Positions 8,304-32,120 of a stretch of DNA of 33,648 nucleotides are shown here, piece by piece; within the stretch, counting starts at the first letter, position 1; every line of letters starts with the position of its first letter. The stretch is from an uncultured Methanobrevibacter sp. (GTDB lineage: Archaea; Methanobacteriota; Methanobacteria; Methanobacteriales; Methanobacteriaceae): positions 1 to 33,648 of the forward strand of contig OMSA01000003.1 in the NCBI GenBank assembly GCA_900313645.1. The letters run 5' to 3'. The translations under genes and the position numbers were made by a program. The notes beneath the pieces are model-generated. The model made no database searches, had not been told where the DNA came from, and saw only the letters and a program-made list of their open reading frames with translations.

Positions 8304-9156
8304 ATTTTGTTTCCAAAACAATGATTAGTGCAAATCCTACTACTGCAACAACAATACATGGCAATATGCCGAATACATCAACGCTTGCAGAACTTACAAT
8401 TTCCACAGCAGGGACCTTAAGTGATCCAAGCATCACACCGATAAGAAATGCCATTGTCAGCTCTTCATAATTCTTAAGCAGGAAATTAAGTATCTTTGAA
8501 AATCCTAAAATTCCTATAACCGCACCAACGGCAAATACTGCAATTTCAGATAAATGAAATTCATGAAGTGCTGTGAGCATGTATTTGTACTGTCCAAGCA
8601 GGAGCAATAAAAATGAACCTGAAATGCCTGGAAGAATCATTGCACAGATAGCTATCATTCCGGATATGAAAATTATTAAAAGTGAATGATTAGCTGCAAT
8701 CGGATTCAGGCTTACAAAGATATAAGTTAAAATCAAACCGATAACTGCACATAAAACATGTTTAATATTGATTTTATCGATTTTTCTAAATAGAATAACA
8801 GCTGAAGCAATGATTAAACCTAAAAAGAATGAATATGTCAGTGCAGTATGGTACTCCATACAGTATGTAACTACTTTTGCAAGTGTCAGGAATGCTATAC
8901 CTATACCTAAAATCAGCGGGATGAAAAATTTAAAGTCTATTTCTTCAAGCAGCTGATTCCAGAATCCTTTAAAGTCCCCTTTAACCAAAGGTTTTAAAAA
9001 TCCAAAGCGGATATTACTGATAGCCTCAATTAGATGACCGTAAATTCCGGTAATTAACGCTATTGTTCCTCCAGAAACTCCTGGAACTATGTCTGCTGAA
9101 CCCATTAGAAGTCCACGAATTAGAATTAGAAAAGCTTCCTTAATGTTAAAATTCAA
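8287..9156 (-). CDS. DUF368 family polytopic membrane protein (possible polyprenyl-phosphate translocase)
   Basis: A 289-aa protein with about eight hydrophobic segments. The N-terminal signature GSADIVPGVSGGTIALITGI and its second half-repeat AMILPGISGSFLLLLLGQY mark the DUF368 family, which has an inverted-repeat PG(V/I)SG motif. Bacterial DUF368 proteins (PopT) were linked genetically to recycling of undecaprenyl phosphate across the membrane. In a pseudomurein-walled archaeon an equivalent role in returning the wall-precursor or glycosylation lipid carrier is a reasonable inference. The start is TTG, with CAGGTGAT about 4 nt upstream; no ATG fits better. It is monocistronic: uvrA upstream has its own terminator, and a terminator follows. 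Confidence 0.85.
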   Translation of the reverse strand: MNFNIKEAFLILIRGLLMGSADIVPGVSGGTIALITGIYGHLIEAISNIRFGFLKPLVKGDFKGFWNQLLEEIDFKFFIPLILGIGIAFLTLAKVVTYCMEYHTALTYSFFLGLIIASAVILFRKIDKINIKHVLCAVIGLILTYIFVSLNPIAANHSLLIIFISGMIAICAMILPGISGSFLLLLLGQYKYMLTALHEFHLSEIAVFAVGAVIGILGFSKILNFLLKNYEELTMAFLIGVMLGSLKVPAVEIVSSASVDVFGILPCIVVAVVGFALIIVLETKFDYME

Positions 9157-28552: not shown

Positions 28553-28606
28553 CTTTAAAAAAAATCAAATATAAATAAAAAAAATTATGAAGCGTCAGCC
28601 ACTTCA
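28553..28606 (-). terminator. T-rich terminator after the P-type ATPase gene
   Basis: Right after the stop the minus strand reads ATT-T7-ATTTATATTTGAT8. A weak 5-bp stem (TGAAG 28588-28592 with CTTCA 28602-28606) straddles the end of the gene. Confidence 0.4.
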
Positions 28607-30732
28607 ATGGCTTCTGCTTCAATACCTTTCGCAAAATCATTTTCTGTTAAAACGGACTTTGTACTCATTACTCCAAACAACATTGTCGATAGATTATGTA
28701 TCAATGAAGATGTTGATGGTGGAATAATGCCCATCACTCCTAAAACTAAAAGAGAACCATTTACTGCCACGATATTGTGGTAGTTGCTGTTGATCTTATC
28801 CAGCATTCCGGAACTTAGTTTTCTCAAAGTTACCAAATCATATAAGTCATCAGACAGCAATGATATATCCGCCACTTCACGGGCAATGTCAGATGAATGT
28901 TTCATTGAAACTGAAACATCAGCAGTTGCAAGAGCTGGTGAATCATTAATTCCATCTCCAACCATAATTACGGTTTTGCCTTCAGCCTTTAGTTCTTCTA
29001 CAATTCTTGATTTGTCTTCAGGAAGAACTTGTGACCGGTATTCAGTAATGCCCAATGCCTTGGCTCCTGCCTTTGCACCGCTTTCGCTGTCTCCGGTAAG
29101 CATTATAACATTTTCTATGCCCAAACTTTTCAGCTCTTCAATGACAAATTTTGCCTCTTCACGTACGGGATCATCAATGCATATCAGCCCTTCCAGTTTT
29201 CCGTCAATGGCCAAGTAAACTACTGAATGTTCCTTAACTTCTTTTGCAATTTTTTTCTCCTGAGTTTTGGTGACCTTAATTTTTTCATCATCAAACAGGA
29301 AGTGTCTGGAACCGATTACTGCACGTTTTCCATCATATTCTGTGGCAATACCGTGAGCAACAATATATTCAACCTCACTGTGGTCCTCTTCATGTATAAG
29401 ACCTTCCTCTTCAGCCTGCTTTACAATGGCTTTTGCAATGCTGTGTGCAAAATGTTCCTCTATACATGCTGCCATCCTTAGGATTTCATCACGTTTGTAT
29501 CTTTTTGACATTGGAATAACATCTACAACTTTTGGAGTTGCATTTGTCAATGTTCCTGTTTTGTCAAATACTATTGTATCGGCATTTGCATAAGCTTCAA
29601 GGAATTTTCCTCCTTTAACCATCATTCTATTATCAGATGCTTCTCGCATTGCAGAAATTATTGACAGTGGAGTAGTTAACTTAATTGCACATGAGAAGTC
29701 AACCATCAGCACGGATAATGCTTTTGATGCATTTCCGGTAATCAAATATGTCAATGCTGTTGCAAGGAAACTGTATGGAACAATTGAATCGGCCAGCTTT
29801 TCAGCTTTGCTTTGGGTTGTTGCCTTTAAATCTTCCGAATTTTCAATTAAATCAATGATTTTGTTTAATCTTGTTTCCTTGTTCATTGAATAGACTTCAA
29901 CAACAATGTTTCCCTCTTCCATTACGGTTCCGGCATGTACCGTCTTGCCGTTTGTCTTGTGCACAGCCAAAGGTTCCCCAGTCATGGAAGATTCATTGAC
30001 CATGCCGTCTCCATCAATTACTTTTCCATCCACAGGTATTACATCGCCCATATGGACCTTGATTTTATCTCCTTTAACAATATCCATTGCAGGAACTTGT
30101 TTTTCTTCACCATCATCTCCAACTAACCATACGGTATCAATGTTTAATGCCAAACTGTCTTTTAGAGTGCTTTTGGCTTTTTGTACAGTATAGTCTTCAA
30201 GAGCATCTGATATTGACAATAAAAACATCATGGAACTCGCTGGCCTGAACTGTCTTTGCAGTAAAGCACCGATTACTGCCGCACCATCTAGTAAAGCCAC
30301 ATCAATACGAAAATCAGTTAAACTGTCAAATCCTCCCCATACATACCTTACTGCACGATAAAGAGTCAATGCATTTTTTATAGGTAAAGGTAAAAACCAT
30401 CTTCCAAGCAGCCTGCGACCTATCATCTTTGATAATTTTAGATAAAAATCATCAGTTATCTCCTTTGAAACTTGAGTCTGTGTTGGTTCTGCTTCAAAAA
30501 GGTCATCCATTGTTATTCCATTTAGAATACGGAATATTTTCTGTTTGCTTTCGGTTTCACCGTCATGGTATATAAGTATGCTCCCGTTTCTATGTGATGT
30601 GAAAACTTCCTGGATAAAATCATGTTTTAAAAGTAATGAGGCAAGACCATAACCTTCCTCTTTTGTGAAAGCCCATTGGCCGGAACGGACTCTGAGACGA
30701 GCTCCGTTATCATACATTACTTGATATTTCAT
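28585..30732 (-). CDS. P1B-like cation-transporting P-type ATPase with atypical metal motifs
   Basis: A 715-aa enzyme (numbers below count from a GTG three codons upstream). It has TGEP (254-257), phosphorylation motif DKTGTLT (393-399), MLTGDSESGAK, and MVGDGINDSPAL. The N-terminal 80 residues look like a degenerate HMA fold without the CxxC pair. At the membrane metal site where P1B pumps have CPC or SPC, this one has FSCAIKLTTP (S350-C351-A352, no proline). The usual HP dipeptide after the phosphorylation domain is HS (H433-S434). It belongs to a divergent branch seen in anaerobes; the substrate is unclear (Mn, Fe, Zn or other metals are possible). The ATG at 30732 has GTGAT 4 nt upstream and is preferred over the GTG at 30741. 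It is expressed with the 88-aa gene. Confidence 0.88.
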   Translation of the reverse strand: MKYQVMYDNGARLRVRSGQWAFTKEEGYGLASLLLKHDFIQEVFTSHRNGSILIYHDGETESKQKIFRILNGITMDDLFEAEPTQTQVSKEITDDFYLKLSKMIGRRLLGRWFLPLPIKNALTLYRAVRYVWGGFDSLTDFRIDVALLDGAAVIGALLQRQFRPASSMMFLLSISDALEDYTVQKAKSTLKDSLALNIDTVWLVGDDGEEKQVPAMDIVKGDKIKVHMGDVIPVDGKVIDGDGMVNESSMTGEPLAVHKTNGKTVHAGTVMEEGNIVVEVYSMNKETRLNKIIDLIENSEDLKATTQSKAEKLADSIVPYSFLATALTYLITGNASKALSVLMVDFSCAIKLTTPLSIISAMREASDNRMMVKGGKFLEAYANADTIVFDKTGTLTNATPKVVDVIPMSKRYKRDEILRMAACIEEHFAHSIAKAIVKQAEEEGLIHEEDHSEVEYIVAHGIATEYDGKRAVIGSRHFLFDDEKIKVTKTQEKKIAKEVKEHSVVYLAIDGKLEGLICIDDPVREEAKFVIEELKSLGIENVIMLTGDSESGAKAGAKALGITEYRSQVLPEDKSRIVEELKAEGKTVIMVGDGINDSPALATADVSVSMKHSSDIAREVADISLLSDDLYDLVTLRKLSSGMLDKINSNYHNIVAVNGSLLVLGVMGIIPPSTSSLIHNLSTMLFGVMSTKSVLTENDFAKGIEAEAIEVADAS

Positions 30733-30753
30733 TTTAATCACTGAAAACTAAAT

Positions 30754-31020
30754 TCATTCTTTTGATTCAACATATATTTCTTTTTTAGTTTCAGCGTTAG
30801 CATCGACAACAATGTCTTCTGCATTTTCTCTCATATCCTGGAAACATTCTTCAGCATCCCTTTTTGCTGACATTACTGCAGCCATACCTTTGGTGGTGGT
30901 TTCTTTGAATGCTTTAGATTTTACAACTTTAGCTCCAATTAGAGCTGTTGCAATTCCTGCTGCAAAAATCAATGCATGTTTATGTTCTACACATGTGTTA
31001 ATAATATCTTCATGTCTCAT
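30754..31020 (-). CDS. Small single-TM protein paired with the P-type ATPase (DUF6110-like)
   Basis: An 88-aa protein. A His-containing N-terminus is followed by one membrane segment (15-34, ALIFAAGIATALIGAKVV), a Lys-rich stretch, then a long charged helix (MSAKRDAEECFQDMRENAEDIV...). From memory it resembles small proteins (DUF6110) that sit next to this class of P-type ATPase in anaerobes; a subunit or regulator role is inferred from position. AAGGATGGT precedes the ATG. It is first in the operon, 21 bp before the ATPase start. Confidence 0.75.
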   Translation of the reverse strand: MRHEDIINTCVEHKHALIFAAGIATALIGAKVVKSKAFKETTTKGMAAVMSAKRDAEECFQDMRENAEDIVVDANAETKKEIYVESKE

Positions 31021-31096: not shown

Positions 31097-31122
31097 ATAT
31101 AAATATTTAGGCATTCCTAAAT
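31097..31122 (-). promoter_or_regulatory. Promoter with an 18-bp dyad operator for the P-type ATPase operon
   Basis: ATTTAGG-CATT-CCTAAAT (31105-31122) is a perfect 7-bp-arm dyad. Its inner end overlaps a minus-strand TATTTATAT TATA-like box (31097-31105). A protein bound there would block the start of transcription of the ATPase operon. The TTAGG...CCTAA arms recall binding sites of DtxR/IdeR/MntR-type metal repressors, which fits a metal pump; this is inference. Confidence 0.55.
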
Positions 31123-31190: not shown

Positions 31191-32120
31191 ATGAATGCTC
31201 ATAAGAAATTCTTCTCAAAAATAGGTGCTGATTACTTCATACTCGGCATAATGACAATAGTATTTCAAGCAATCATAATAAATATTATCAATGTGATTAA
31301 TCCGATTTATCTAAATGATTTTAACATATTAACAGCATTATCAGCACTTTGCAATTACATACTGCCCTTTCCGATTTTTTATCTGCTGATGAAGAGATTG
31401 CCATCCCAGACAATAGAAAAACACAGCATTGACTTTAAAACATTGCTTAAATACATCGCAATAACAATTACATTAATGCAGATTGGAAACATAATCAGTG
31501 TGGTGATAACTGCAATTTTAAGCGGCGCCATTCAAAGCGAGATTACAAATCCGGTTCATCAGCTAATCAACAATAACAATATACTGATTAATCTGCTTGT
31601 AATCAGTATCATAGCACCGATATTTGAAGAAATCTTTTTTAGAAAATTTTTAATTGACAGAACAATCAAATACGGGGCAAGAGTTTCAATAATATTGTCC
31701 GCAGCATTATTCGGATTTTTCCATGGAAACATCAATCAGTTCTTTTATACATTTCTGATGGGCGGATTTTTTGCATATGTCTACATAAAAACAGGAAAAA
31801 TAACATACCCAATAATCCTGCATTCCATAATAAATATGATAGGATCCGTATTGAGCCTATTTATTCAAAGCTCAATATCCAACCTTAAAACTGCAATCAA
31901 CCCTATGGATTTAGGTCTGCTTATTATTTATTTTTTAATCATATTTTTATCTTTGCTGATTGGAGTGTGGAGCTTGTTTAATTACAAACAAGCTAAATTT
32001 AATGGTGAAAAAACAGAAATAAATTTAAAATACCCTCTTAATACGGTATTTGTAAATTATGGGATGATTATATTTATCGGATTTTTTATCATTCTGATGG
32101 TAAAACAGGCGTTTTTTTAA
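31191..32120 (+). CDS. CPBP family intramembrane glutamic endopeptidase (CAAX protease-like)
   Basis: A 309-aa protein with about eight membrane segments. The family motifs are present: EEIFFR (E146, E147, R151), ALFGFFHGN (H178) and ILHSIINMIG (H211, N215). CPBP (Abi) proteases cleave within or next to the membrane; in prokaryotes they take part in peptide processing, self-immunity and protein maturation, and the substrate here is unknown. CAGG lies about 7 nt before the ATG. It is divergent from the P-type ATPase operon across 170 bp and convergent with the CMD-family gene. Confidence 0.9.
   Translation: MNAHKKFFSKIGADYFILGIMTIVFQAIIINIINVINPIYLNDFNILTALSALCNYILPFPIFYLLMKRLPSQTIEKHSIDFKTLLKYIAITITLMQIGNIISVVITAILSGAIQSEITNPVHQLINNNNILINLLVISIIAPIFEEIFFRKFLIDRTIKYGARVSIILSAALFGFFHGNINQFFYTFLMGGFFAYVYIKTGKITYPIILHSIINMIGSVLSLFIQSSISNLKTAINPMDLGLLIIYFLIIFLSLLIGVWSLFNYKQAKFNGEKTEINLKYPLNTVFVNYGMIIFIGFFIILMVKQAFF

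Follow-up and report, generated by a model that had tools for sequence, protein, structure and literature searches.

Does a palindrome beside the promoter of a metal pump place that pump in a metal regulon, and can it help to name the metal that the pump carries? The question is raised by a 33,648-nucleotide (nt) stretch of DNA from an uncultured Methanobrevibacter sp. (hereafter the window), in which a perfect dyad, ATTTAGG-N4-CCTAAAT, stands at positions 31105..31122 (annotated without a strand) ahead of two leftward genes encoding a DUF6110 membrane protein and a P1B6-type heavy-metal P-type ATPase. Very probably, this dyad is one of the switches that make up the iron regulon of the cell. 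The fuller reading that we favor, and hold with good confidence on the strength of the sequence and its conservation in promoters, is that the dyad is a DtxR-family iron operator predicted to repress the DUF6110-ATPase genes together with the iron-uptake gene feoB, the regulator's own gene and a family of structured RNAs, with the pump likely serving storage.

The exact sequence at 31105-31122 is ATTTAGGCATTCCTAAAT, with CATT as its N4 spacer, and the core TTTAGGN4CCTAAA occupies 31106-31121. The leftward genes have a TATA-like box, ATTTATAT (31104-31097, minus strand; recognized by its sequence and by the like layout in relatives' promoters), that directly adjoins the dyad, so the span 31097-31122, which a sequence-only reading had described as a perfect dyad overlapping the box, is box plus dyad: the palindrome is indeed perfect, but the box abuts it. 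That reading also called the half-sites characteristic of DtxR-family operators. TTAGG and CCTAA do form a perfect inverted repeat and are shared with the bacterial IdeR/DtxR box, whereas the classical spacing is not matched, as the half-sites here lie 4 base pairs (bp) apart and the classical box measures 19 bp with a wider spacing; in this respect the dyad is nearer to boxes of the Sir/MntR type. Within the window the full dyad is the sole exact copy, and matches with up to 3 mismatches number three in all (the dyad included) for 3.36 expected, so that the two 3-mismatch matches are at chance level.

Across genomes the pattern is clearly enriched. The source genome, an archaeal draft of 1.42 Mb that is 78% complete, holds the exact 18-mer in two places and the core in 8, compared with 1 for a control consisting of the core pattern read backwards. 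The same comparison gives 569 against 63 in 48 Methanobrevibacter genomes, with the true pattern exceeding the control in 48/48, and 409 against 39 in 71 other genomes of the family. Taken as a group, one-mismatch sites show no enrichment (at most one mismatch: 21 vs. 20 for the control in the source genome, 36 vs. 26 in the complete relative G051). Thus, single inexact sites count here only where position or conservation supports them, and an inexact genome-wide site list was dropped as a regulon by itself. The dyad recurs in the genome, with inexact copies before both feoB genes and the DtxR-family gene and others elsewhere, and uniqueness, which would have spoken against a regulon, is not what is found. 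Dyads in G051 also lie near cysteine synthase, argininosuccinate lyase, CbiM-like and hydrogenase-like genes (L275, L276, L279, L282 and L285; genes named by eye), and some of these may be there by chance.

The dyad is also conserved at orthologous pump operons. ATPase matches number 94, in 89 of 119 family genomes, and upstream DNA was examined for 87 of them after leaving out four without an N-terminus, one at a contig end and two paralogues (37% identity). Among the 43 orthologues of the genus the promoter window contains the dyad exactly in 30 and with at most one mismatch in 34, while 59 permuted palindromes counted in the same 43 promoters average 0.03 and never exceed 2. The conserved dyads sit 280-470 bp before the ATPase start, which is the promoter region of the DUF6110 gene that precedes the ATPase in the genus loci; in most of these promoters a TATA-like box starts a few bases from the dyad, and several contain a further dyad on the downstream side of TATA. 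In eight of the 43 the promoter dyad is absent within 900 bp, a loss that looked contrary to the idea until the gene order was considered: in seven of the eight (L041, L042, L044, L046, L050, L052 and L057) feoB, feoA, a gene for a 65-amino-acid (aa) protein, the DUF6110 gene and the ATPase gene follow one another in one orientation, so that the pump of these species lies in an iron-uptake operon. The eighth, L039, lacks this explanation, and L067 has only a one-mismatch site further upstream. Non-conservation at orthologous operons had been named as an observation that would overturn the proposal; with the dyad in 34/43 and a feo operon in seven of the other nine, the proposal stands.

The dyad also accompanies feoB and the regulator gene. 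It occurs within 260 bp upstream of feoB at 33/33 starts (30 loci), some of these dyads being those of a divergent RNA gene. The source draft genome yielded a single DtxR-family gene, and an orthologue of this regulator is present in 111/119 family genomes; beside the TATA box of the regulator's own promoter is a site of the form TTTAGGNNNNCCAAAA, which departs from the core by at most one mismatch in 24/30 cases and by at most two in 30/30. In having a DtxR-family regulator, a palindromic operator and feoAB as a target, this arrangement resembles the archaeal FetR/MntR regulons that Leyn and Rodionov reportedly described in 2015, and differs in having two further targets, a P1B6 ATPase operon and a multi-copy RNA family. 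The operator itself belongs to an already known kind. The first feoB of the draft genome is split into several frames (L016:3873-5801, minus strand), perhaps through an assembly error.

Outside the window the dyad also precedes a family of structured RNAs, one copy of which stands beside feoB. In the source genome two dyads, at C179:8417 and 8488, flank a TATA box in a gene-free stretch next to feoB, and three hairpins and a T run follow; the fold predicted here beats those of shuffled sequences by 6.1 standard deviations. This copy, with its two exact dyads around TATA, spans L016:8414-8689 on the plus strand, and just upstream of it (about 8325-8360) is a degenerate second promoter of like layout. 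The element has no Rfam match over threshold. Similar DNA is present in 59/60 genomes of the genus, sometimes in tandem, and a covariance model built on the post-promoter part, which contains no dyad, finds 1-5 copies in each of 46/48 genus genomes and, under stringent filters, none in 71 other family genomes.

Such a multi-copy, at times tandem, element could simply be a mobile or repeat sequence with no regulatory role, which we consider unlikely given its structure and its promoter. Of 87 elements found by BLAST, 78 were used (five of a divergent second class, two without the usual terminator, one partial and one at a contig start were dropped), and 67 of these were aligned, the remaining 11 having been left out by eye, mostly as near-duplicates or for odd start points. 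In this alignment 98.2% of the cells in two stems form pairs, compared with 34-47% in slid controls, and changes on both sides of a pair occur in 42 cells compared with 12.7 (sd 2.8) in shuffles. The support from covariation rests on cells and score, since pairs with double changes (5 vs. 3.7) and pair types (18 vs. 17.4) do not go beyond the shuffles. The predicted fold includes a third hairpin, with a conserved CUGCC loop, in 59/67, the loops rank among the most conserved parts, and the 3' end is terminator-like. The promoter layout is likewise fixed: at least one exact dyad stands upstream in 78/78 copies and two in 73, about 70 bp apart and with TATA roughly 28 bp past the beginning of the first dyad. 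The 78/78 count is biased because the BLAST query contained the dyads. Matches found by the model only, in four genomes that gave it no sequence, carry exact dyads in 11/11 cases and two in nine. Together with the presence of the RNA in 46/48 genomes, these features argue against an inert repeat.

A coding origin was also rejected: none of the 78 copies overlaps an open reading frame (ORF) of at least 100 aa by more than 60 nt, and most of the longest sense ORFs within the copies are small (2-55 aa). For 51/78 copies the gene that follows is convergent, for four a gene on the same strand begins within 150 nt, and 14/30 feoB loci have an RNA copy no more than about 1.5 kb from feoB. At the level of sequence, then, the element fits a stand-alone non-coding transcript with a terminator and an iron-repressor operator, and our best guess is an iron-starvation small RNA (sRNA) family of Methanobrevibacter. 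RyhB and PrrF are the bacterial iron-starvation sRNAs, and the likeness lies in a non-coding RNA predicted to be under an iron repressor; the present RNAs are unlike them in being archaeal and in having several structured copies per genome, their sequence relation having been checked through Rfam only, with no match. We tentatively propose, at somewhat short of even odds, that these genus-specific multi-copy RNAs are an archaeal counterpart of RyhB/PrrF, with paired operators around TATA and often divergent from feoB, and that together with a ferrosome-type P1B6 ATPase, itself repressed by iron, they would serve to spare iron and to store it. A search of two genomes for the 9-mer complementary to the CUGCC loop returned 65 places, and the 30 loci examined show no clustering at start codons; one site falls in the first codons of an ORF (L376) and the rest lie deeper in ORFs or in non-coding or antisense positions, RNA genes included, a result that lends no support to a rule for targets of the RNA. 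Open-licence PMC literature yielded no iron-regulated sRNA for Methanobrevibacter or archaea, so that, as far as the literature was searched, the RNA family is uncatalogued, and both the pump's membership of the regulon and, more so, the RNA family brought to light under the same dyad switch appear to be new. The second class of RNA has the same paired dyads and first hairpin with another 3' part (CTCCGATT... and CATATAACTACTCTC) and is found at L194 near 1422, L204 near 1438 and L214 near 1338 (all minus strand), and at L239 near 2529 and L242 near 2200 (both plus strand).

The sequence-only reading left the metal as iron or manganese, and membership of the pump in such a regulon is supported. 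It is iron that we favor of the two, because of the link to feoB and because the regulator has an IdeR-type Cys, a further likeness to bacterial IdeR/DtxR control. Aligned to solved structures, the regulator reads ACEMEH where IdeR has ACRWEH and where ScaR and SloR have AEVLEH, so that Cys stands where the latter two carry Glu; Met10 is the first Met ligand of IdeR. A regulon responding to manganese (or to cobalt or nickel), with an ATPase that handles that metal, seems quite unlikely to us. ScaR and SloR, which are manganese sensors, are among the best solved relatives of the regulator, and CbiM-like genes lie near two G051 sites, but neither the feoB dyads at every start nor the pump inside a feo operon in seven species would be expected, and the IdeR-type Cys also argues for iron. 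Several observations do weigh against an iron operator of the kind proposed. The regulator has Glu at the IdeR Met10 position, nearer the Asp of manganese sensors, and the G051 site list includes, besides the CbiM-like genes, cysteine synthase, argininosuccinate lyase and ABC transporter genes with no obvious iron role. In other genera 23/44 ATPase loci have no dyad within 900 bp, while 21/44 have one. The source genome is, moreover, incomplete, and a further regulator could be missing from the 78% recovered. The regulator gene (L031:1192-1914, minus strand) also encodes a Cys-rich stretch, CPDENIIPACNFDFGSCQECF, which is largely conserved in 30 orthologues and mostly unmatched in IdeR or ScaR, and is possibly a further metal site.

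The pump itself has P1B6 motifs. The 88-aa DUF6110 (PacL-like) protein is encoded at 30754..31020 on the minus strand (PF19605, 33.4 bits, cut-off 26), followed by the ATPase, a predicted iron pump, at 28585..30741 on the same strand (TIGR01525, 493 bits, over cut-off) with a likely start at 30735 (MKYQ). In the ATPase motif FSCAIKLTTP, SCA replaces CPC, and the last helix has an HN motif; both are invariant in 11/11 aligned relatives. We take SCA to be a P1B6 motif, and the pump combines a late-helix HN, the lack of CPC and a DUF6110 neighbor. The HN motif and the DUF6110 neighbor are given as P1B6 features in PMC9374683, according to which DUF6110 genes typically adjoin P1B6 ATPases, Archaea included, and PMC13043812 terms DUF6110 proteins PacL-like. 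The PacL1-CtpC zinc efflux platform, as PMC9374683 presents it, is similar in having a small PacL-like protein before a P1B pump, while the pump here lacks the CPC motif and is predicted to be under iron-type control. Its substrate is most likely iron, and the dyad thereby helps to name it, as had been hoped. A DtxR-type repressor site ahead of a P1B pump is, taken alone, no sign of export, and joint repression with iron uptake fits storage better.

FezB is a P1B6 ATPase, and ferrosome fezA/fezB resembles the present operon in pairing a small membrane protein with a metal ATPase under predicted iron repression. The operon here is archaeal, and its control is predicted to run via DtxR, not Fur, the repressor of C. 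difficile FezA/FezB (PMC12574912). When iron is plentiful, the Fe2+-loaded DtxR-family regulator would occupy the dyad and keep basal factors off the adjoining B recognition element (BRE) and TATA box, so that the DUF6110-P1B6 ATPase operon, feoB and the regulator's own gene would be shut off together. When iron is scarce, repression would be released and these genes would come on. The same regulator would govern the multi-copy structured RNAs of about 200 nt, which by analogy may act as iron-sparing regulators. The ATPase would most likely move Fe2+ into a storage compartment, ferrosome-like as with FezA/FezB, and not perform detoxifying export; we prefer storage because an exporter co-repressed with iron uptake would be odd.

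The direction of control could also be the reverse, with the iron-loaded regulator acting from upstream of TATA to turn on an exporter at high iron. Archaeal activators do bind upstream of TATA, where the dyad lies, and P1B pumps usually export. We give this little chance, since the dyad is also placed just upstream of TATA at feoB and the regulator gene, since downstream of TATA a further dyad is present in several ATPase promoters, and since the pump is part of a feo operon in seven species. With repression and storage preferred, an otherwise ambiguous pump can be assigned iron as its likely substrate and, as a role open to testing, the storage of iron while it is limiting, which is relevant to gut and rumen methanogens with their high iron demand.

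That the operator serves mainly the divergent gene for a CPBP/Rce1-type membrane protease (31191..32120, plus strand; PF02517) is very improbable, for although the dyad lies between the two divergent genes and protease-like ORFs occupy the corresponding place in several loci, it adjoins the TATA box that would serve the leftward genes, and the pump's link to feo control persists in loci with an altered gene order. Judged by distance only, the protease gene may share the operator.
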